Shown: positions 6,674 through 58,254 of the stretch, piece after piece
How positions within the stretch are numbered: position 1 is the first letter of the stretch
Layout: every line of letters begins with the position of its first letter
Assembly (NCBI GenBank): GCA_001898465.1
Contig: MKTX01000010.1
Location: 62,001 to 126,000, forward strand
DNA length: 64,000 bases
Source of the DNA: Sphingobacteriales bacterium 39-19
Lineage (GTDB): Bacteria; Bacteroidota; Bacteroidia; Chitinophagales; Chitinophagaceae
Direction of reading: 5' to 3'
Translations under genes and position numbers: made by a program
Notes under the pieces: generated by a model
The model's database searches: none
What the model was told of the DNA's origin: nothing
What the model saw: only the letters and a program-made list of their open reading frames with translations

Positions 6674-6849
6674 ATGATGAGTTATGAGTGATGAGTTATG
6701 AGTTATGAGTGATGAGTTATGAGTGATGAGTTATGAGTTGTGAGTTGTGAGTGATGAGTTATGAGTTATGAGTTGTGAGTTTTGAGTGATGAGTTGTGAG
6801 TTGTGAGTTATGGATCCGTTCATCATTTATCTCTCATCATTCATCATTA
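6674..6849. repeat. Heptanucleotide tandem array, left flank of the four-helix-bundle cassette
   Basis: From 6674 to 6813 twenty consecutive 7-base units follow one another without any indel; the units are variants of GTKRTGA (GTTATGA, GTGATGA, GTTGTGA). They end in TTATGGATCCGTTC (6808-6821). After this the heptads continue in register but in inverted sense, as TCATCAT units at 6820, 6834 and 6841. The array starts 4 bases from the TTG start of wzt. The units are degenerate but strictly periodic, so this is not simple low complexity. It is non-coding in all likelihood. Confidence 0.95.
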
Positions 6850-6862
6850 ATTATCCCCCATT

Positions 6863-7219
6863 TCAGCGTTTCAAATTTTTCTTTGTTGTTAAAATAGCAC
6901 TCTTAATCATTTTTAATATTTCCTCCCCGTCTTTAGAAAAAGCCACATATTCATCCCGCTCAATATAAGCAGATTGCAAAAGTAGTTCCAGCCAATATAA
7001 ACTTTCATCACATTCTTTTTGTGCTATTGCTAATTTATGAACAAAATCCATTTTACTCTCGGCATTTTGAGCTTCCCGAATCATTGCCCCTACTGAAGTT
7101 GCACTTCGTAAAAGTTGCTTGCTCATCACAAATTCCTTTTTAGACTCAATTAATTTCTTGTAAAGTCGAATTATAGACAAAGCAAATGAAAATGATTTTT
7201 CTTTTAAAAAATTTGGCAT
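6863..7219 (-). CDS. Four helix bundle protein (23S rRNA intervening-sequence/Avd-like family)
   Basis: An all-helical 118-residue protein. The segment QLLRSATSVGAMIREAQ (about residues 35-51) followed by ESKMDFVHKLAIAQKECDES and YWLELLLQS is the diagnostic core of the four-helix-bundle family that includes the protein encoded in 23S rRNA intervening sequences and the bAvd accessory proteins of diversity-generating retroelements. No reverse transcriptase or variable repeat lies nearby, so a DGR role is not supported. The basic C-terminus (KKNLKR) and the family suggest a nucleic-acid-binding, multimeric protein, but its function is unknown. It interrupts the wzm-wzt pair in the same orientation and is bracketed by two heptanucleotide arrays (6674-6849 and 7245-7344), which suggests a mobile or inserted cassette. 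A second member of this family is fused to RidA at 54163-54978. Confidence 0.9.
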   Translation of the reverse strand: MPNFLKEKSFSFALSIIRLYKKLIESKKEFVMSKQLLRSATSVGAMIREAQNAESKMDFVHKLAIAQKECDESLYWLELLLQSAYIERDEYVAFSKDGEEILKMIKSAILTTKKNLKR

Positions 7220-7244
7220 TTCTGTATAATTTTTTAGTCAGGAA

Positions 7245-7344
7245 TTATGAACCCGTTCCACATTCAACATTCATCCTTCCTCCTTCCTCATTCATAATTC
7301 CTCATTCATAATTCCTCATTCACAATTCCTCATTCACAATTAAA
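7245..7344. repeat. Heptanucleotide tandem array, right flank of the four-helix-bundle cassette
   Basis: Begins with TTATGAACCCGTTC (7245-7258), which matches the element TTATGGATCCGTTC in the left flank at 12 of 14 positions and in the same orientation. From 7261 to 7344 twelve heptads follow in perfect register: CATTCAA, CATTCAT, CCTTCCT twice, then alternating CATTCAT or CATTCAC with AATTCCT, ending in AATTAAA. The last unit contains the stop codon of wzm (7342-7340 on the minus strand). The unit sequence differs from that of the left array, but the period is the same. Confidence 0.93.
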
Positions 7345-50947: not shown

Positions 50948-51943
50948 TTACAGCCCGGGTACATGTAACCAGGCCTGTGCATTTTTATATAGTAATTTTT
51001 CCTGCAATTCCTGACCGGGAACAGAGGTTTCAATTAATTTCCCGGGATGCTGTTCACCTAAAGGAAATGGATAATCACTGCCCAGGCATATTTTATCTTC
51101 GCCCATTACATCTATAATAAATTGCAATGCCAGCGGATCATGCACCAGGCTATCAATCCAGAATTTACCAATATAATTTTTCGGGTTGATGGCATTATCA
51201 ACAGCCACCAAATCGGGGCGTACCTGAAAGCCGTGCTGAATGCGGCCCAGCGTAGCAGGAAAAGAGCCTCCGCCGTGGGCAAATGCAATCCTGAGTGCCG
51301 GGAATTTTTCAAGCACCCCGGCAAAAATCAATGAACAGATCGCTCTTGAAGTTTCTGCCGGCATCCCCACTAGCCAGGGCAACCAATATTTTTGCATTTG
51401 CGATTGCCCCATCATATCCCAGGGATGTACAAACAGGGCACAGTTTAATTCTGCAGCCCGCTTATAGAAAGGGAAAAACTTTTCTTCACCCAGGTTTTCG
51501 CCATTTATATTACTGCCCATTTCTACACCAGGCATTTTTAATTCGGTTACACATCTTTCCATTTCCTGTATGGCCAGGTCAATATCCTGCATGGGTAACG
51601 TACCTAATCCTATAAACCGGTCGGGGGTTTTACTTACCGTATCGGCTATATGGTCATTAAAAAAACGGCTGGTCTCCCATCCATCTTTCGGCTTTGCCCA
51701 ATAATTAAATAAAACCGGGATGGTAGATAATACCTGTACGCTTACGCCGGTGGCATCCATTTCTTTTTGCCGTTCACTGGCATCAAAGCAATTATTATCT
51801 ACTACTCTAAAAACGGTATCGCCTTTCATCATACAGGCCTGGCAATTCCTATGTTCCAGGTGAATAAAATCGCCATAGCCAAATTTTTTAATCCAGTTTG
51901 GCATGGTACCGGGCATGATATGTGTATGTATGTCTATTTTCAT
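50948..51943 (-). CDS. nbaD: 2-amino-3-carboxymuconate-6-semialdehyde decarboxylase (ACMSD)
   Basis: A zinc-dependent amidohydrolase-fold decarboxylase that converts ACMS to 2-aminomuconate-6-semialdehyde and so draws kynurenine carbon away from quinolinate. The N-terminus MKIDIHTHIMP supplies the two zinc histidines; FVHPWDM (about residue 170) gives a third and LGSDYPFPLG (about 290) the catalytic/ligand aspartate. The segments FRVVDNNCFD, MDATGVSVQVLSTIPVLF and RIAFAHGGGSFPATLGRI are specific to ACMSD. About 331 residues with this start; an in-frame ATG 21 bases upstream (51964) would add seven residues not seen in the family as I know it. It follows the dioxygenase gene on the same strand. 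Confidence 0.93.
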   Translation of the reverse strand: MKIDIHTHIMPGTMPNWIKKFGYGDFIHLEHRNCQACMMKGDTVFRVVDNNCFDASERQKEMDATGVSVQVLSTIPVLFNYWAKPKDGWETSRFFNDHIADTVSKTPDRFIGLGTLPMQDIDLAIQEMERCVTELKMPGVEMGSNINGENLGEEKFFPFYKRAAELNCALFVHPWDMMGQSQMQKYWLPWLVGMPAETSRAICSLIFAGVLEKFPALRIAFAHGGGSFPATLGRIQHGFQVRPDLVAVDNAINPKNYIGKFWIDSLVHDPLALQFIIDVMGEDKICLGSDYPFPLGEQHPGKLIETSVPGQELQEKLLYKNAQAWLHVPGL

Positions 51944-51982
51944 TTTATTACCGATCACGGGCATATTTATGATGGCTTATTC

Positions 51983-52507
51983 TTACCCTTTTTTAACCGG
52001 TAAGCTCATAACGGCACCGCATTGGGTACAGGTTCTCTTGTGTTCATCTTTATAAAAACCTTCCATAATGGGCGGTAATTGAGAAACGATATCGTTTATT
52101 ACTTCGTACTCTTCATACAATTTATTGCCGCAATTTTCGCAATACCAAAGAAAACCGTCCTTTTCATTTTCCCTTACTTTTTCTATTACCAACCCAATGG
52201 TGCCGGGGCCTCTTTGTGGTGAATGCGGCGTTTGGGGAGGCAATAAAAACATATCGCCCTCATGGATATGTATGTCCCGGGGCTTACCATCTTCAATAAT
52301 TTTCACCACAATATCTCCCTCCAGTTGGTAATACAATTCTTCGGTTTCGTTGTAATGATAATCTTTACGGGAGTTAGGGCCACCCACTACCATTACAATA
52401 AAGTTTTCGGCATCTTTATAAATACATTGGTTTCCCACGGGTGGCTTCAATAAATCCCGGTGTTCATCAACCCATTTTTTTAAGTTGAAAGGCGCTGCTA
52501 TTGACAT
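51983..52507 (-). CDS. nbaC: 3-hydroxyanthranilate 3,4-dioxygenase
   Basis: A cupin-fold Fe(II) extradiol dioxygenase of 174 residues that opens 3-hydroxyanthranilate to ACMS. With ATG 52507 as start, the iron ligands fall at H51, E57 and H95, and substrate residues R47, R99 and E109 are present, in close agreement with the numbering of the characterised Cupriavidus enzyme. The bacterial rubredoxin-like second iron site is kept as C123-x-x-C126 and C160-x-x-C163 near the C-terminus. An in-frame TTG 6 bases upstream is less likely. It is first in the minus-strand pair and transcribed away from the dehydrogenase gene, with a 134-base shared regulatory region. Confidence 0.96.
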   Translation of the reverse strand: MSIAAPFNLKKWVDEHRDLLKPPVGNQCIYKDAENFIVMVVGGPNSRKDYHYNETEELYYQLEGDIVVKIIEDGKPRDIHIHEGDMFLLPPQTPHSPQRGPGTIGLVIEKVRENEKDGFLWYCENCGNKLYEEYEVINDIVSQLPPIMEGFYKDEHKRTCTQCGAVMSLPVKKG

Positions 52508-52641
52508 ATACAAAAGTTTTAATTGAAAAAATAAACCGCTATTACCGGGATCGCCGTTTTATTTGCGGATATCGTAAAGTTAAGCCTTTGCATTTATTTT
52601 TATTGCCATGCCCTTTTTGATGAAATGCTTAATTTTGAACC

Positions 52642-54099
52642 ATGCAACTGGACATCCCCTATCACCTGGAAAATTTTATTGGCGGAAATTTTATCGGGCC
52701 CCTGAGCGGTAAATTTATAGATGATATAAACCCGGCCACAGGCACCGTGTTTGCACAAATACCCAATAGTAACGAAAGGGATATTGATATTGCCGTACAG
52801 GCAGCCAAAAAAGTGCAGGCATCCTGGGCGGCCGGCAGTTTAGAAAATCGTTTTTTAATCTTACATAAAATCGCTGATTTAATTGATGAAAATGCCGAAG
52901 CGCTGGCAGAAGCCGAAACAAAAGATAATGGAAAACCCTTGTGGCTTAGCCGCAAAGTGGATATTTACCGGGCAGCTGCAAACTTCCGTTTTTTTGCAAC
53001 AGGCCTGATGCATTTTGCTTCGGAAAGCCATGCAAGCGAAAATAAATATATTAATTACACTTTGCGGCAACCCATCGGTATTGTGGGCTGTATATCTCCC
53101 TGGAACCTGCCTCTTTATTTATTCACCTGGAAAATTGCCCCGGCATTAGCTGCCGGTAATTGTGTAATTGCAAAACCTTCGGAAGTAACACCCGTTACTG
53201 CATTTCTTTTAGGTAAGATAGCCCGGGAAGCGGGGCTGCCTGCCGGTGTTTTAAATATTGTTCATGGTGATGGTATAAGCTGTGGCGAAGCCATAGTAAA
53301 ACACCCCGATATCAAGGCCATCTCTTTTACCGGCAGTACCCGTGCCGGGGCTCAAATAGCATCCATAGCCGCACCTGCTTTTAAAAAGCTTTCTTTAGAA
53401 CTGGGCGGTAAAAATCCTAATATCATTTTTGCAGATTGTGATTGGGATAAGATGATGAAAACAACATTGCAATCTTCTTTCAGCAACCAGGGGCAAATAT
53501 GCCTCTGCGGTAGCCGCATTTTAATAGAAGCCAGCGTATATGAAAAATTTAAAAAAGAATTTGTTGAAAAAACAAAAGCTTTAAAAACCGGCGATCCAAG
53601 GCAGCCGGAAAACCAGCAGGGCGCTATTGTAAGTAAAATGCATTTTGATAAAATTTTACATGCTATTGAGTTGGCTAAAGAAGAAGGCGGCATCCTGTTA
53701 TGCGGTGGTAATGCTGTAAACCCTGGCGGGGATTGTGCTGGTGGCTATTTTATAGAACCTGCCATAATAGAAGGATTGGGGCCTGACTGCAAAACCAATA
53801 CCGATGAAATTTTTGGACCCGTAGTTACTTTACAGGCATTTCATCATATAGAAGAAGCGCTGGAACTAGCCAATGCCACTCCCTACGGACTGGCCTGCAG
53901 TATATGGACGAGCAACATCGGCATAGCGAATAGCGTTGCCAGCCGCATAGAAGCCGGTATTGTGTGGATAAACTGCTGGCTACAGCGGGATTTACGCACC
54001 CCGTTTGGCGGCATTAAAAATAGTGGCGTAGGAAGAGAAGGCGGTTGGGAGGCTTTGCGTTTTTTTACAGAAGCAAAAAATGTTTGTATTGAATATTAA
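52642..54099 (+). CDS. nbaE: 2-aminomuconate-6-semialdehyde dehydrogenase
   Basis: An NAD-dependent aldehyde dehydrogenase of 485 residues that oxidises 2-aminomuconate semialdehyde to 2-aminomuconate. The general base E253 lies in LELGGKNPN and the catalytic nucleophile C287 in NQGQICLCGSRI; the NAD-binding FTGSTRAGAQIA and the proline-rich PWNLPLYLFTWKIAPALAAGN are typical. The C-terminus has GIVWINCWLQRDLRTPFGGIKNSG, the segment characteristic of the 2-hydroxymuconic/2-aminomuconic semialdehyde dehydrogenase group rather than of general ALDHs. It begins the plus-strand kynurenine operon. Confidence 0.94.
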   Translation: MQLDIPYHLENFIGGNFIGPLSGKFIDDINPATGTVFAQIPNSNERDIDIAVQAAKKVQASWAAGSLENRFLILHKIADLIDENAEALAEAETKDNGKPLWLSRKVDIYRAAANFRFFATGLMHFASESHASENKYINYTLRQPIGIVGCISPWNLPLYLFTWKIAPALAAGNCVIAKPSEVTPVTAFLLGKIAREAGLPAGVLNIVHGDGISCGEAIVKHPDIKAISFTGSTRAGAQIASIAAPAFKKLSLELGGKNPNIIFADCDWDKMMKTTLQSSFSNQGQICLCGSRILIEASVYEKFKKEFVEKTKALKTGDPRQPENQQGAIVSKMHFDKILHAIELAKEEGGILLCGGNAVNPGGDCAGGYFIEPAIIEGLGPDCKTNTDEIFGPVVTLQAFHHIEEALELANATPYGLACSIWTSNIGIANSVASRIEAGIVWINCWLQRDLRTPFGGIKNSGVGREGGWEALRFFTEAKNVCIEY

Positions 54100-54162
54100 A
54101 ATGCATAGTTACTTTTATAAGCAGCATCATTCATTTACATTTCTAATTGGGAGGGCATTACA

Positions 54163-54978
54163 ATGATCAAAAAATTTACTGACCTGGAAATCTGGCAAGC
54201 AGCCCATGCATTAGGCAATAAAGCAAATGCGATCCTGAACCAGTCAAACTTTACCCCTGATGAAGCTTTGAAAGAACAGGCAAACAAATCCGCCGGCTCC
54301 ATCGCCGACAATATTGCAGCAGGATTTGGAAAGGGCGATAACCCGGCCTTTATACAATACCTTCAGCTGTCCAAAGCATCGGCCTTTGCATTACAATCGC
54401 AATTGATGAGATGCTGTGAACGCCAATATATTTCAAAAGAAATACGTGATGAACTGGTTTCTGGTACAGATAATATCGTAACAAAAATAGATGCCTTTAT
54501 CAGCCATTTACAACCGGCAACGAAGGCGGATTCTATACCTGCTGATACCCTGCCCCATGATGTACACCCGGAAGTTGTGAGTACCTTACATGCGGCCCGG
54601 CCCCTGGGTGCTTACCCACATGCACGCAAGGCAGGTAATTTATTATTCCTGTCAGGGATTGGCCCCAGGCAGGCGGCTGACAATTCCATTCCCGGGCTGG
54701 TATTGGATGCGGAAGGCAACATCGTAACCTATGATATAGAAGCCGAGTGCCATGCCGTATTTGCCAATGTAAAAGCAGTGCTGGAAGCCAGTGGCAGTTG
54801 CTGGGAAAACATGATAGATGTAACAGTTTTTTTAACCCATATGAAAAAAGATTTTGAAATATATAATAAAATCTATGGCCATTACTTTCAAGGAATAAAT
54901 GCATGCAGAACAACAGTAGAAGTAAAAAGCCTCCCTACTCCTATTGCTATTGAATTAAAAGTTATTGCTACCCTATAA
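54163..54978 (+). CDS. Four-helix-bundle/RidA fusion, probable 2-aminomuconate deaminase
   Basis: One uninterrupted frame of 271 residues joins two unrelated domains. Residues 1-117 are a four-helix-bundle (23S-IVP/Avd-like) domain: KFTDLEIWQAAHALG, then LKEQANKSAGSIADNIAAGF, GDNPAFIQYLQLSKASAFAL. A linker (118-142) leads to a RidA/YjgF domain (143-271) with RPLGAYPHARKAGNLLFLSG and NACRTTVEVKSLPTP, where R249 is the conserved substrate-carboxylate arginine. The RPLGAYPHAR and SGIGPR segments are those of 2-aminomuconate deaminase (NbaF/AmnD), which hydrolyses 2-aminomuconate to 4-oxalocrotonate; neighbours on both sides act just before and earlier in that pathway. Normal deaminases of this type are about 140-150 residues. 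A GGGAGG stretch lies 8 bases before the ATG, which is rare here. kynU follows after 10 bases. The role of the helical domain is unknown. Confidence 0.9.
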   Translation: MIKKFTDLEIWQAAHALGNKANAILNQSNFTPDEALKEQANKSAGSIADNIAAGFGKGDNPAFIQYLQLSKASAFALQSQLMRCCERQYISKEIRDELVSGTDNIVTKIDAFISHLQPATKADSIPADTLPHDVHPEVVSTLHAARPLGAYPHARKAGNLLFLSGIGPRQAADNSIPGLVLDAEGNIVTYDIEAECHAVFANVKAVLEASGSCWENMIDVTVFLTHMKKDFEIYNKIYGHYFQGINACRTTVEVKSLPTPIAIELKVIATL

Positions 54979-54988
54979 AAAATACATT

Positions 54989-56293
54989 ATGGAAAAACAT
55001 ACCGGTTTGCCTTTGCAATTTAAAAATACACTGGAGTACGCCCAATATTTAGATGAGCAGGATCACCTGAAAAGTTTCCGGGATCAATTTTATATCCCGC
55101 TGCTGCATGGTAAAGATGCTATATATTTTACCGGCAACTCATTGGGCTTACAACCCAAAACCACCCAGGATTATGTATTGAATGAACTGGAAGATTGGGC
55201 CAATTACGGCGTAGAAGGACATTTAAATGCCCGTAACCCCTGGATGTATTACCATGAAATGTTTACCGAACCGCTTACAAAAATTACAGGGGCATTACCT
55301 ACCGAAGTGGTAGCCATGAACCAACTCACTGTAAACCTGCACCTGCTTTTAGTTAGTTTTTACAGGCCTAGCAAACAGCGCTATAAAATTATTTGTGAAG
55401 CCAAAGCATTTCCTTCTGATCAATATGCCCTGGAATCGCAGGTGAAACTGCATGGTTTTAATTATGATGAAACCGTAATTGAAATAGCCCCCGAACCGGG
55501 TGAGCATACCGTAAAATTAGAAAATATTTTAGCCGCAATCGATCAGCATAAAAATGAACTGGCGCTCGTTATTTTGGGTGCTGTAAATTATTATAATGGC
55601 CAGGTATATAATATGGAAGCCATCACAAAGGCCGCCCATGCAGCTGGCGCCTATGCCGGGTTCGACCTGGCCCACGCAGCCGGCAATATAGAATTAAAAC
55701 TGCATGAATGGGATGTTGATTTTGCCTGCTGGTGCAGTTATAAATATTTAAATAGCGGCCCGGGTGGCGTAGCCGGTGTGTACATTCATGAAAGGCATGC
55801 CCAAAATACAAGCCTGCCCCGCTTTGCAGGCTGGTGGGGTTACCCCGATGAAACCCGGTTTGAAATGAAAAAAGGATTTATACCCACGCCCACTGCCGAA
55901 GGCTGGCAACTGAGTAATGCCCCCATCTTAAGTATGGCCGCCCATAAAGCTTCCTTAGATATTTTTGATGAAGCCGGCATGGTGCATATTGCAAAAAAAG
56001 GAAAAGATTTAAGCAGTTATTTAATGTACTTGTTGCATGACCTCAACAGCATCACCGCAGAAAAGAGAATTGAAGTAATTACCCCATCACATGAAAATGA
56101 ACGGGGCTGCCAGGTAAGTATGCTGATGCTGAAAGACGGTAAAAAAATATTTGAAACTTTAAAAAAAGAAAGTGTTATTGCCGACTGGCGTGAGCCGAAT
56201 GTAATAAGAGTAGCACCCGTTGCTTTATATAACCGTTTTGAAGAAGTATTTCGTTTTTATGAAATCATACGGGCTATTATAACCGCATCGTAA
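54989..56293 (+). CDS. kynU: Kynureninase
   Basis: A PLP-dependent hydrolase of 434 residues that cleaves 3-hydroxykynurenine (or kynurenine) to 3-hydroxyanthranilate (or anthranilate) and alanine. The fold-type I signature CWCSYKYLNSGPGG holds the PLP lysine; FTGNSLGLQP, the substrate segment NPWMYYHEMFTEPL and the PLP-aspartate region AGFDLAHAAGN are present, as is GWWGYPDETRFEM. ATG 54989 (MEKHTG) is chosen because the alternative TTG at 54965 would overlap the previous gene. kmo follows after 7 bases. Confidence 0.95.
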   Translation: MEKHTGLPLQFKNTLEYAQYLDEQDHLKSFRDQFYIPLLHGKDAIYFTGNSLGLQPKTTQDYVLNELEDWANYGVEGHLNARNPWMYYHEMFTEPLTKITGALPTEVVAMNQLTVNLHLLLVSFYRPSKQRYKIICEAKAFPSDQYALESQVKLHGFNYDETVIEIAPEPGEHTVKLENILAAIDQHKNELALVILGAVNYYNGQVYNMEAITKAAHAAGAYAGFDLAHAAGNIELKLHEWDVDFACWCSYKYLNSGPGGVAGVYIHERHAQNTSLPRFAGWWGYPDETRFEMKKGFIPTPTAEGWQLSNAPILSMAAHKASLDIFDEAGMVHIAKKGKDLSSYLMYLLHDLNSITAEKRIEVITPSHENERGCQVSMLMLKDGKKIFETLKKESVIADWREPNVIRVAPVALYNRFEEVFRFYEIIRAIITAS

Positions 56294-56300
56294 ATACAAT

Positions 56301-57650
56301 ATGAAAAGAGAAGTAACCATTATAGGGGCCGGTTTGGTAGGTTCCCTGCTAGGCATCTACCTGGCAAAAAGAGGATACCCGGTTGTAATTTATGAACGCC
56401 GGGGAGATATGCGCAAAGAAAATATGGCTGCTGGCCGGTCTATCAACCTGGCATTGAGCGACCGGGGCATACAAGCCCTGGAAGAAGTAGGCATAATGAA
56501 TGAGATACGCCCCATTACCATACCCATGCATGGCAGGCAAATTCATCATGAAGACGGAAGCAGCGCTTACCAACCTTATGGATTAGAAGGCCAGTTTATA
56601 AATTCGGTTTCCCGGGGTGAACTTAATATTAAATTAATGAACCTGGCAGAATCGTACGGCGTGGAAATATTTTTTAATCATACTTGTGATTTTATTAATT
56701 GGGATAAAAAAACCATTCAATTTAAAAACGCAGAAACTACGGTTATTAAAAATTTCGATCTTTTATTTGGCAGCGATGGCGCTTATTCTGCAGCCCGGCT
56801 CAATCACCAGTTACAGCACGACCGCTTTCAATATCACCAATACTATATTGATTATGGTTATAAAGAACTCCATATACCTCCCGGCAACCAGGGTGCATTC
56901 AGGATGAAAGAAAATGCATTGCATATTTGGCCCCGGGGAAACTATATGCTCATTGCCTTACCCAATACAGACGGAAGTTTTACCTGTACTTTATTTTTTC
57001 CTTTCGAGGGGAACCCTTCTTTTGCCAGCTTACAGACAAAACAGGAAATAAACGATTTTTTTAATCAGCATTTTCCCGATGCGGCTCAACTGATGCCAAC
57101 ACTTTTAGAAGATTTTATCAATAACCCCACCTCTTCATTGGTTACCGTAAAATGTTTTCCCTGGGTACGAAAAAATAATTTTACACTTATCGGCGATGCC
57201 GCCCATGCGCTGGTTCCCTTCTTTGGCCAGGGCATGAATTGCGGTTTTGAAGATTGTTCGGTTTTAAATAAACTGGCAGATGAAGAAAAAGAAGATTGGG
57301 AAAAAATATTAGAACGATTCCAGGCATTACGCAAACCCGATGCAGATGCCATTGCTGATTTGGCATTGAATAATTTTATTGAAATGAGGGATAAAGTGGC
57401 CGACCCGGTATTCCTGCTGCAAAAGAAAATTGAAAACCGGTTTAGCAGTAAATACCCCCGGCTGTGGACACCGGCTTACGGGCTGGTTACCTTTAGGCCC
57501 GATATCCGGTACAGTACGGCACTTGAAAAAGGGAACCGGCAACAAGCCATTATGGATGAAATCATGCGCCTGCCGGGTATTGAAGACATTTGGGATAGCC
57601 CCCGGGTAGAAGAAGCGATATTACAAAAAATAAACAGCGCCCATGTATAA
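56301..57650 (+). CDS. kmo: Kynurenine 3-monooxygenase
   Basis: An FAD/NADPH-dependent hydroxylase of 449 residues making 3-hydroxykynurenine from kynurenine. FAD motifs: VTIIGAGLVGSLLGIYLAKRG at the N-terminus (GxGxxG), the acidic YERRGD, and the second FAD motif IGDAAHALVPFFGQGMNCGFEDC. AGRSINLALSDRG and the FSxDGAYSA-like GSDGAYSAAR segment are typical of KMO. A C-terminal hydrophobic helix seen in eukaryotic KMO is absent. The end overlaps the next gene by 8 bases. Confidence 0.96.
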   Translation: MKREVTIIGAGLVGSLLGIYLAKRGYPVVIYERRGDMRKENMAAGRSINLALSDRGIQALEEVGIMNEIRPITIPMHGRQIHHEDGSSAYQPYGLEGQFINSVSRGELNIKLMNLAESYGVEIFFNHTCDFINWDKKTIQFKNAETTVIKNFDLLFGSDGAYSAARLNHQLQHDRFQYHQYYIDYGYKELHIPPGNQGAFRMKENALHIWPRGNYMLIALPNTDGSFTCTLFFPFEGNPSFASLQTKQEINDFFNQHFPDAAQLMPTLLEDFINNPTSSLVTVKCFPWVRKNNFTLIGDAAHALVPFFGQGMNCGFEDCSVLNKLADEEKEDWEKILERFQALRKPDADAIADLALNNFIEMRDKVADPVFLLQKKIENRFSSKYPRLWTPAYGLVTFRPDIRYSTALEKGNRQQAIMDEIMRLPGIEDIWDSPRVEEAILQKINSAHV

Positions 57651-58254
57651 GTTTTCTTATTACCGTGAAATTGATGAAAAAAAAGTACTCGAATTTATGA
57701 GGGAACAATCATTTGCCATGGTAATAGGTATGGGCGTTCAATTTCCTGCCGCCACCCAACTGCCGCTGGAAGTAACAGAAGAAAATGGAAAAATTTGGTT
57801 TACCGGCCACCTGATGAGAAATACGGATCACCACCGGGCATTTGAAAAAAATAAAAATGTATTAGTGATCTTTAGCAGCCCGCATGCTTATATTGATGCG
57901 AATTGGTATAAACAAAAAGCAAAAGCCAGTACGGTAAATTACATGTCAGTACATGCACAGGGTATTATTCATTTTTTAGATGAAACCGGCACCCGTAAAA
58001 CCATTGAGCAAATAACGGATAAGCATATTGGCAAAAATACCGAAGCCTCTTTTGCTCATTTACCCGAAGCGTATATTCAACAAAACTTAAAAGCCATAAT
58101 TGGGTTCCGGGTTGAAGTCACACAACTGGACCATGTATTTAAACTTAGCCAAAACTATGATGCCGAAGACCGGGCCGCTATAGTAACAGAGTTGGAAAAA
58201 AGAAAAACCCCAGGCGATTTGTTCATAGCCCATCAAATGAAAAAGCAATTATAA
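57643..58254 (+). CDS. PaiB-like FMN-binding split-barrel protein
   Basis: A 203-residue protein that matches the PaiB family (FMN-binding_2, pyridoxamine-phosphate-oxidase-like split barrel): N-terminal YREIDEKKVLEFMREQSFAMVI, then LPLEVTEENGKIWFTGHLMRNTDHHRAF, FSSPHAYIDANWY and STVNYMSVHAQG, and a C-terminal IGFRVEVTQLDHVFKLSQNY. In Bacillus PaiB was named a transcriptional regulator, but many members look like flavin or haem-binding proteins. The 8-base overlap with kmo suggests a job in kynurenine degradation, perhaps flavin supply or regulation; this is inference. Confidence 0.85.
   Translation: MYKFSYYREIDEKKVLEFMREQSFAMVIGMGVQFPAATQLPLEVTEENGKIWFTGHLMRNTDHHRAFEKNKNVLVIFSSPHAYIDANWYKQKAKASTVNYMSVHAQGIIHFLDETGTRKTIEQITDKHIGKNTEASFAHLPEAYIQQNLKAIIGFRVEVTQLDHVFKLSQNYDAEDRAAIVTELEKRKTPGDLFIAHQMKKQL

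Follow-up and report, generated by a model that had tools for sequence, protein, structure and literature searches.

The fused gene and its operon

The gene under study lies in a kynurenine operon of the window, the whole stretch of 64,000 nucleotides that was analyzed, and is read as a single open frame of 271 codons without an internal stop (Table 1). Residues 7–109 of the product match PF05635 (E 4e-18, 66 bits against a cut-off of 33.8), and the protein also scores over the cut-off of TIGR02436 (59.9 against 24); residues 143–270 match PF01042 (E 3.6e-22, 79 bits against a cut-off of 27.3). The frame, the profile matches and the neighboring genes confirm the initial annotation, which had read residues 1–117 as a member of a four-helix family and residues 143–271 as a RidA protein within a kynurenine operon. 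R249 and E264 of the RidA domain, presumably catalytic as in E. coli RidA, are invariant across 29 aligned sequences. The best solved relative of residues 144–269 is AmnE, a 2-aminomuconate deaminase (6izh), and the surrounding genes are those of kynurenine catabolism, as expected for this type of enzyme. Judged by profile, closest solved relative and gene context, the RidA part is of the 2-aminomuconate-deaminase type. Structure prediction, one of the checks proposed for this gene, gave the expected architecture: the AlphaFold model (built from 29 aligned sequences; mean pLDDT 77, pTM 0.51) contains four helices at residues 9–116, a stretch with pLDDT below 50 (residues 119–150) and then the RidA fold.

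Table 1. Features of the kynurenine operon and of the second four-helix element in the window
Feature	Position	Strand	Basis
Fused gene, four-helix bundle and RidA-type 2-aminomuconate deaminase, 271 aa	54163..54978	+	ORF reading, Pfam, AlphaFold model
N-terminal four-helix (23S_rRNA_IVP / S23) domain, residues 1–118	54163..54516	+	Pfam, alignment, model
Linker, residues 119–142, low model confidence	54517..54588	+	Alignment, model
RidA domain, residues 143–271	54589..54975	+	Pfam, alignment
Spacer between aldehyde dehydrogenase and fused gene, 63 bp, no detectable inverted-repeat arm (score 18, chance level)	54100..54162	+	Repeat scan
Aldehyde dehydrogenase (ALDH), upstream operon neighbor	52642..54099	+	Profile match
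Kynureninase (TIGR01814), downstream neighbor; listed from TTG, true start probably later	54965..56293	+	Profile match
FAD monooxygenase, KMO by context (below every NCBIfam cut-off)	56301..57650	+	Profile match and context
3-Hydroxyanthranilate 3,4-dioxygenase (3-HAO)	51983..52513	-	Profile match
Amidohydrolase (PF04909), ACMSD by context	50948..51964	-	Profile match and context
Stand-alone, unfused four-helix gene with repeat arms	6863..7219	-	PF05635 E 6e-26, repeat scan
5' arm of the 6863–7219 element, GAATGAGGAATTAT-type units	7285..7337	-	Repeat scan
3' arm of the 6863–7219 element, heptamer array ACTCAYM	6676..6808	-	Repeat scan

An FMN-binding gene (PF04299) at 57643–58254 adjoins the kynurenine genes and is retained there in many relatives. 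Within its own genome, the fused protein has a single further match, a RidA with 35% identity. Among plasmid records 254 match it, none over 80% of the query, and a wider contig search returned four loci, all with the RidA part only. Deaminases 53%–55% identical to the RidA part of the window occur in three Planctomycetota MAGs and one Poseidoniales archaeon MAG (L032–L035).

Spread, exchange and decay of the fused bundle

The same pair of domains was searched for in other genomes, as had been proposed. With the fused protein as query, the near-full-length matches listed among 294 genomes of the family were those of the window's genome (G000), G245 and, with stops, G215; on reading of the family loci two further fusions were found (G281 and G044). 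In G215, a separate four-helix gene, a member of another bundle subfamily, lies directly before the deaminase. Within the window's genus, 55 of 93 genomes match the fused protein, and 54 operons were examined (51 fetched together, two earlier, and that of the window; G378, which matched in part, was omitted). The bundle and the deaminase share one open reading frame in 15 of them (G000, G281, G298, G302, G306, G316, G324, G329, G349, G354, G356, G360, G367, G369 and G372), with a scaffold gap cutting the deaminase in G302 and no in-frame ATG ahead of the bundle in G360. A broken form is present in two, and in the remaining 37 no four-helix gene was detected before the deaminase; in G310, no ALDH was found within the stretch. 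In the second genus the domains are fused in two of three genomes (G245 and G044) and unfused in G197, and G133 lacks a match at the threshold applied. In a 395-genome phylum sample, 41 genomes matched at E 1e-30 or better; coverage of the whole protein was seen only in the window's genome, and no further fusion was listed. Because a diverged bundle can escape the match rows (the row for G281 starts at residue 136), long frames were also read, and no bundle was present in the five of G755, G408 and G698 (phylum sample) and G243 and G293 (family sample).

Two other candidates were rejected. The putative fusion of G233 (L175) is an open stretch with masked bases, and the apparent four-helix gene inside the deaminase of G302 is separated from it by an NN scaffold gap and probably follows the deaminase. 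This second four-helix gene of G302 (L235, 3216–3569) lies between deaminase and kynureninase, beyond the gap. The frequency of the open fusion in the two genera argues against an assembly error, and the identical junction in many other genomes rules out both an assembly and a frameshift artefact. The two domains are therefore truly joined, as first proposed; neither a stop or frameshift between them nor a misassembly applies, and the separate four-helix gene of G215 belongs to the other subfamily.

Sequence comparison indicates that the bundle DNA is exchanged separately from its neighbors. For G298 and G369, identity of the four-helix part reaches 99.4%, against 82%–90% for ALDH (a 315-bp piece), RidA, KYNU and KMO, and its synonymous distance is 0.03 against 0.37–0.62 for the neighbors. 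The corresponding distances are 0.01 and 0.21–0.28 for G329 and G324, and the reverse case is seen for G306 and G367, where the bundle stands at 0.76 and the other genes at 0.51–0.65. Across 105 pairings of fused genomes, the four-helix part ranked lowest of the compared genes in 64 and highest in 7; base composition may add to this count, and the claim of exchange is for this reason based on the extreme pairs. The bundle also decays. A stop codon lies inside it in G350, and in G357 a frame-broken bundle is kept in place with only its C-terminal part in frame. In two unfused genomes, G365 and G377, the deaminase starts with letters like the KFMNR tail and linker of the bundle; these few letters are likely scars of a lost bundle. 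The decayed copies and likely scars indicate that the deaminase can do without the bundle.

It had been suggested that the spread of the fusion be mapped on a species tree. The fused state was mapped, on a tree of the operon rather than of the species (quick search, SH-aLRT support only; G350 scored as fused and G357 as unfused), and 11 changes between fused and unfused states were needed, at least 9 of them forced by well-supported branches. The fused bundles form one group (support 80/85, present in 76% of bootstrap trees), and the fused genes have a common junction to the deaminase. In AU tests, a single clade of the RidA parts of four fusions was rejected (p 0.007) and a single clade of the bundles of the same four was not (p 0.38); a clade of the named fused-bundle rows was rejected (p 0.008), these rows omitting the G350 fragment, which falls within the group. 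A single fusion followed by recombination and loss fits the modest grouping and the shared junction; a single origin is unsure, and independent fusions may have occurred.

Repeat arms and operon placement of four-helix genes

The first sign of inverted repeats came from an alignment of the fused genes of G360, G369 and G298 with unfused G362, in which GTTTGG-type repeats stand before the bundle and CCAAAC-type repeats after it. Collected four-helix genes were scanned for such arms with 250 bp on each side, a score of at least 30 being taken as the mark; the set is non-random and combines the top matches from 30 genomes of the family, the majority of the four-helix genes in ten selected genomes, and the kynurenine operons. 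The median score of 120 genes was 35, with 81 at or above the mark (11 of 15 fused and 70 of 105 others) and 39 below it. The same score was reached by 1.2% of random intervals of the same loci (n = 496), 3.7% of other ORFs (n = 240), 2.9% of swapped flanks (n = 620) and 4 of 115 short genes, and, in a stricter control, by 5 of 42 co-directional genes with gaps of 40 bp or more. On dinucleotide shuffling, 95 of 123 four-helix loci scored above all 20 shuffles. In the phylum sample 13 of 30 loci reached the mark and 17 fell below it, against 0 of 150 random intervals and 1.4% of 146 swapped flanks.

The arms are runs of short tandem units such as GTTTGG, GTTAATTGG, AAGTTGTAAGTATTAAG and GGATACTGGTTGCTGG. 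In predicted minimum-energy folds, 73 of the 81 armed elements have half or more of the 5' arm paired with the 3' arm, and the fold of the G372 element has a z of -7.6. The unit follows the protein: among the 81 elements, compared in pairs without homologous flanks, arm sequence was shared (score of 12 or more) by 63% of 19 pairs at 60%–80% protein identity, 19% of 47 at 50%–60%, 4% of 197 at 40%–50% and 0%–2% of 2751 below 40%. The correlation of 0.20 was reached by none of 2000 permutations; the majority of the 19 close pairs derive from two subfamilies, so that a clear effect is seen but not yet a broad one. The linker of fused genes is a translation of the 3' arm, and many fused relatives carry TKHQTPN- or NNKQQT-type letters there. 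No insertion with a target duplication was caught among the loci compared. The ALDH–RidA gap of unfused G362 (L241) holds an inverted repeat without an ORF, of another unit type (AAGGCACAAAGG / CCTTTGTGCCTTTGTG), where others hold a four-helix gene.

The second member of the helical family that had been noticed in the window at 6863–7219 is borne out by its profile match (Table 1). Its ends are complementary, the arms scoring 36 against a shuffle maximum of 25; the fold of the element is no better than that of shuffles (z -0.08), yet the arms pair. A whole-genome scan with a three-unit pattern and up to one mismatch detected no copies of the ACTCAYM heptamer outside its own array. The element as a whole (6676–7337, minus strand) lies between two genes read as O-antigen-type ABC transporter genes.

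Four-helix genes of this family are common: 98 genomes of the bacterial family contain 416 PF05635 matches, and 113 of the 148 genomes in a phylum sample have at least one. In 27 kynurenine operons outside the window's genus, eleven four-helix genes were counted, ten within the operon and one next to it; they stand ahead of ALDH, between HAO and ACMSD or between ALDH and RidA, and some are fused. These 11 compare with 0.2 expected at the density of the family sample (416 matches in 421 Mb) and 0.7 expected if the 3.1 per Mb of four-helix-rich genomes like G074 is applied; the resulting small Poisson values should not be read literally, since the genomes are related, the query favored the two fused genomes of the second genus, and G245 is denser (18 matches in 2.9 Mb). 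The kynurenine operon is an apparent preferred place for four-helix genes of two subfamilies. One comprises the fused domains together with copies before ALDH (G197 and G245), between HAO and ACMSD (G163) and beside the FMN gene (G074), and the other the copies of G215, G232, G074, G091, G219 and G167. Altogether, non-fused copies occupy five places in or beside kynurenine operons: before ALDH, between ALDH and RidA, between HAO and ACMSD, between RidA and KYNU beyond the scaffold gap, and beside the FMN gene. None of the loci collected places the gene in 23S rRNA; the four-helix genes sit between operon genes. They are also strongly oriented. Among 101 unfused genes with neighbors on both sides, both neighbors agreed in direction in 90 (++), one in 8 (+- 5, -+ 3) and neither in 3 (--), and other genes of those loci agreed with a given neighbor in 111 of 152 cases. 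Such sense placement would arise from selection for expression from the host operon and also from insertion via RNA. In the collected loci, the sequences suggest that the bundle behaves as an invading module.

The copy in the fused gene of the window is an exception. No inverted-repeat arms were detected at 54163, its ends are not complementary, and its linker is without the repeat letters seen in relatives; the origin of this copy as an element thus rests on its relatives. The bundle keeps 5 of 8 positions conserved in at least 80% of 127 relatives (Q39, S46, N50, I51 and G54). At residues 42, 53 and 76 it has K, A and A, where relatives mostly have R, E and E, and the two replaced glutamates are near-invariant (E53 in 124 of 127, E76 in 126 of 126). 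Its dN against three other fused bundles is 0.42–0.45, compared with 0.01–0.19 for the other tested pairs, at saturated synonymous sites, and in the tree it forms a long branch (1.08) among the fused bundles, in a group supported at 95/82. The open frame and the four helices predicted with good confidence indicate that some constraint remains. The window copy would then be a captured domain that is no longer mobile and survives as a normal part of the protein, either domesticated or in slow decay, perhaps as a repurposed remnant.

Origin of the fusion and comparison with known systems

The N-terminal domain is probably the protein of an insert like an intervening sequence (IVS), captured into the deaminase by fusion, the module having later been swapped and lost in lineages. 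A four-helix gene between inverted repeats would be carried in sense within host operons, and one such insert would have come to sit between the ALDH and deaminase genes of a kynurenine operon. Loss of the insert's stop codon and of the deaminase start would have turned the 3' repeat arm into a linker and given the fused protein; the module would then have been swapped among lineages by recombination and lost again in some. The initial annotation had supposed that a mobile-looking four-helix gene landed before the deaminase and was joined to it, and the several operon positions, the arms of most copies and the separate exchange support it. The elements presumably move as units, and the deaminase is expected to work as a RidA trimer with tethered bundles. 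Movement driven by a reverse transcriptase is disfavored, since an RVT_1 match was absent in seven of eight genomes tested, G000 among them (E 0.001). Y1 transposase genes matched in all eight, which leaves a Y1 transposase acting on the hairpins in trans as the more open possibility. In G241 (C1:1320562-1324675), a four-helix gene and a Y1 transposase gene lie approximately 3.5 kb apart, perhaps by chance.

An alternative, which we consider unlikely, is that the bundle was recruited to oligomerize or scaffold the deaminase and has been kept for that function. One open frame covers both domains in 15 of the 17 copies of the genus, and dN/dS of the fused bundles is 0.05–0.14 in nine of ten computable pairs (several with dS >1.3), the tenth, G329/G324, having 0.54 on a dS of 0.01; such constraint can also result from spread of the element itself. 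For the family, two solved chain sequences were retrieved (2rld and 2gsc), each with five chains, and an S23p from Xanthomonas is reported as a homopentamer (PMC4990558). RidA proteins are normally trimers (PMC6742747), so that the fused protein would combine threefold with fivefold symmetry; a mixed-symmetry cage is no more than an idea. Against recruitment, the bundle has decayed in G350 and G357 and has disappeared from G365 and G377, where a likely scar is left, the fused state changes repeatedly on the operon tree, and E53 and E76 are gone in the window copy. The suggestions of the initial annotation that the domain might hold pathway enzymes together or link flux to nucleic-acid binding likewise gained no support, given its loss or decay in relatives that retain the deaminase and the two replaced glutamates.

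It is rather doubtful that the arms are regulatory, the four-helix protein binding repeats of its own mRNA and tuning the operon without being mobile. The sense orientation, the tracking of protein similarity by the repeat unit and the arm pairing in predicted folds would all suit this explanation, but one subfamily with one unit type occurs at different operon places and the module is exchanged between genomes, which requires movement or recombination. A chance read-through fusion without meaning, passively kept, would account for its loss or decay in several relatives but is improbable, given open frames in 15 genus copies and two of the second genus with mostly low dN/dS.

On capture of an IVS-like insert, the fusion shows a route from insert to part of a host enzyme, and an insert of parasite-like character has apparently been built into a metabolic enzyme. 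The arms that follow protein clades, the sense placement and the separate exchange offer testable biology for a common, unexplained family: its binding target, the movement of the unit and its possible cutting from mRNA. More speculatively, Bacteroidota PF05635 proteins could be the genes of widespread mRNA intervening sequences, each recognizing its own tandem-repeat stem, inserted in sense in operons, perhaps moved by Y1 transposases and sometimes captured as coding domains, with the fused deaminase as a captured end state, possibly a mixed trimer and pentamer. A search that covered mainly the open literature, and is weak evidence of absence, found, among the papers listed, no published report of four-helix genes within inverted repeats in protein operons; genes of such kind appear in published prophage tables.

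The RidA domain of the fused protein resembles AmnE, which, unlike the fused protein, is described as a single domain and forms a hexamer that depends on Arg56 (PMC6742747). Counted on the alignment, Arg56 corresponds to N186 of the fused protein, Met96 to M227 and Pro126 to P258. The PF05635 family is described as resembling Avd of diversity-generating retroelements (PMC10053308). Unlike those systems, most of the genomes tested here, that of the window included, are without the reverse transcriptase match, as noted above. In REP/RAYT/REPIN systems, hairpins are tied to a protein clade. The arms described here are likewise linked to a protein clade and occur in genomes with Y1 transposase genes; in contrast, the enclosed gene encodes a four-helix protein instead of the transposase, and in G000 the heptamer array was detected at a single place. 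Closest are the IVSs of 23S rRNA, in which an S23p/IVP ORF of the PF05635 four-helix type lies within complementary borders that form a stem, with a sporadic distribution and horizontal transfer; that of Coxiella has complementary bordering sequences and a 28-bp stem and is cleaved by RNase III in vitro (PMC4990558). Unlike these, the present elements lie between the protein genes of operons, their arms consist of short tandem units that differ between four-helix clades, and in the fused gene the bundle is joined to a host enzyme.
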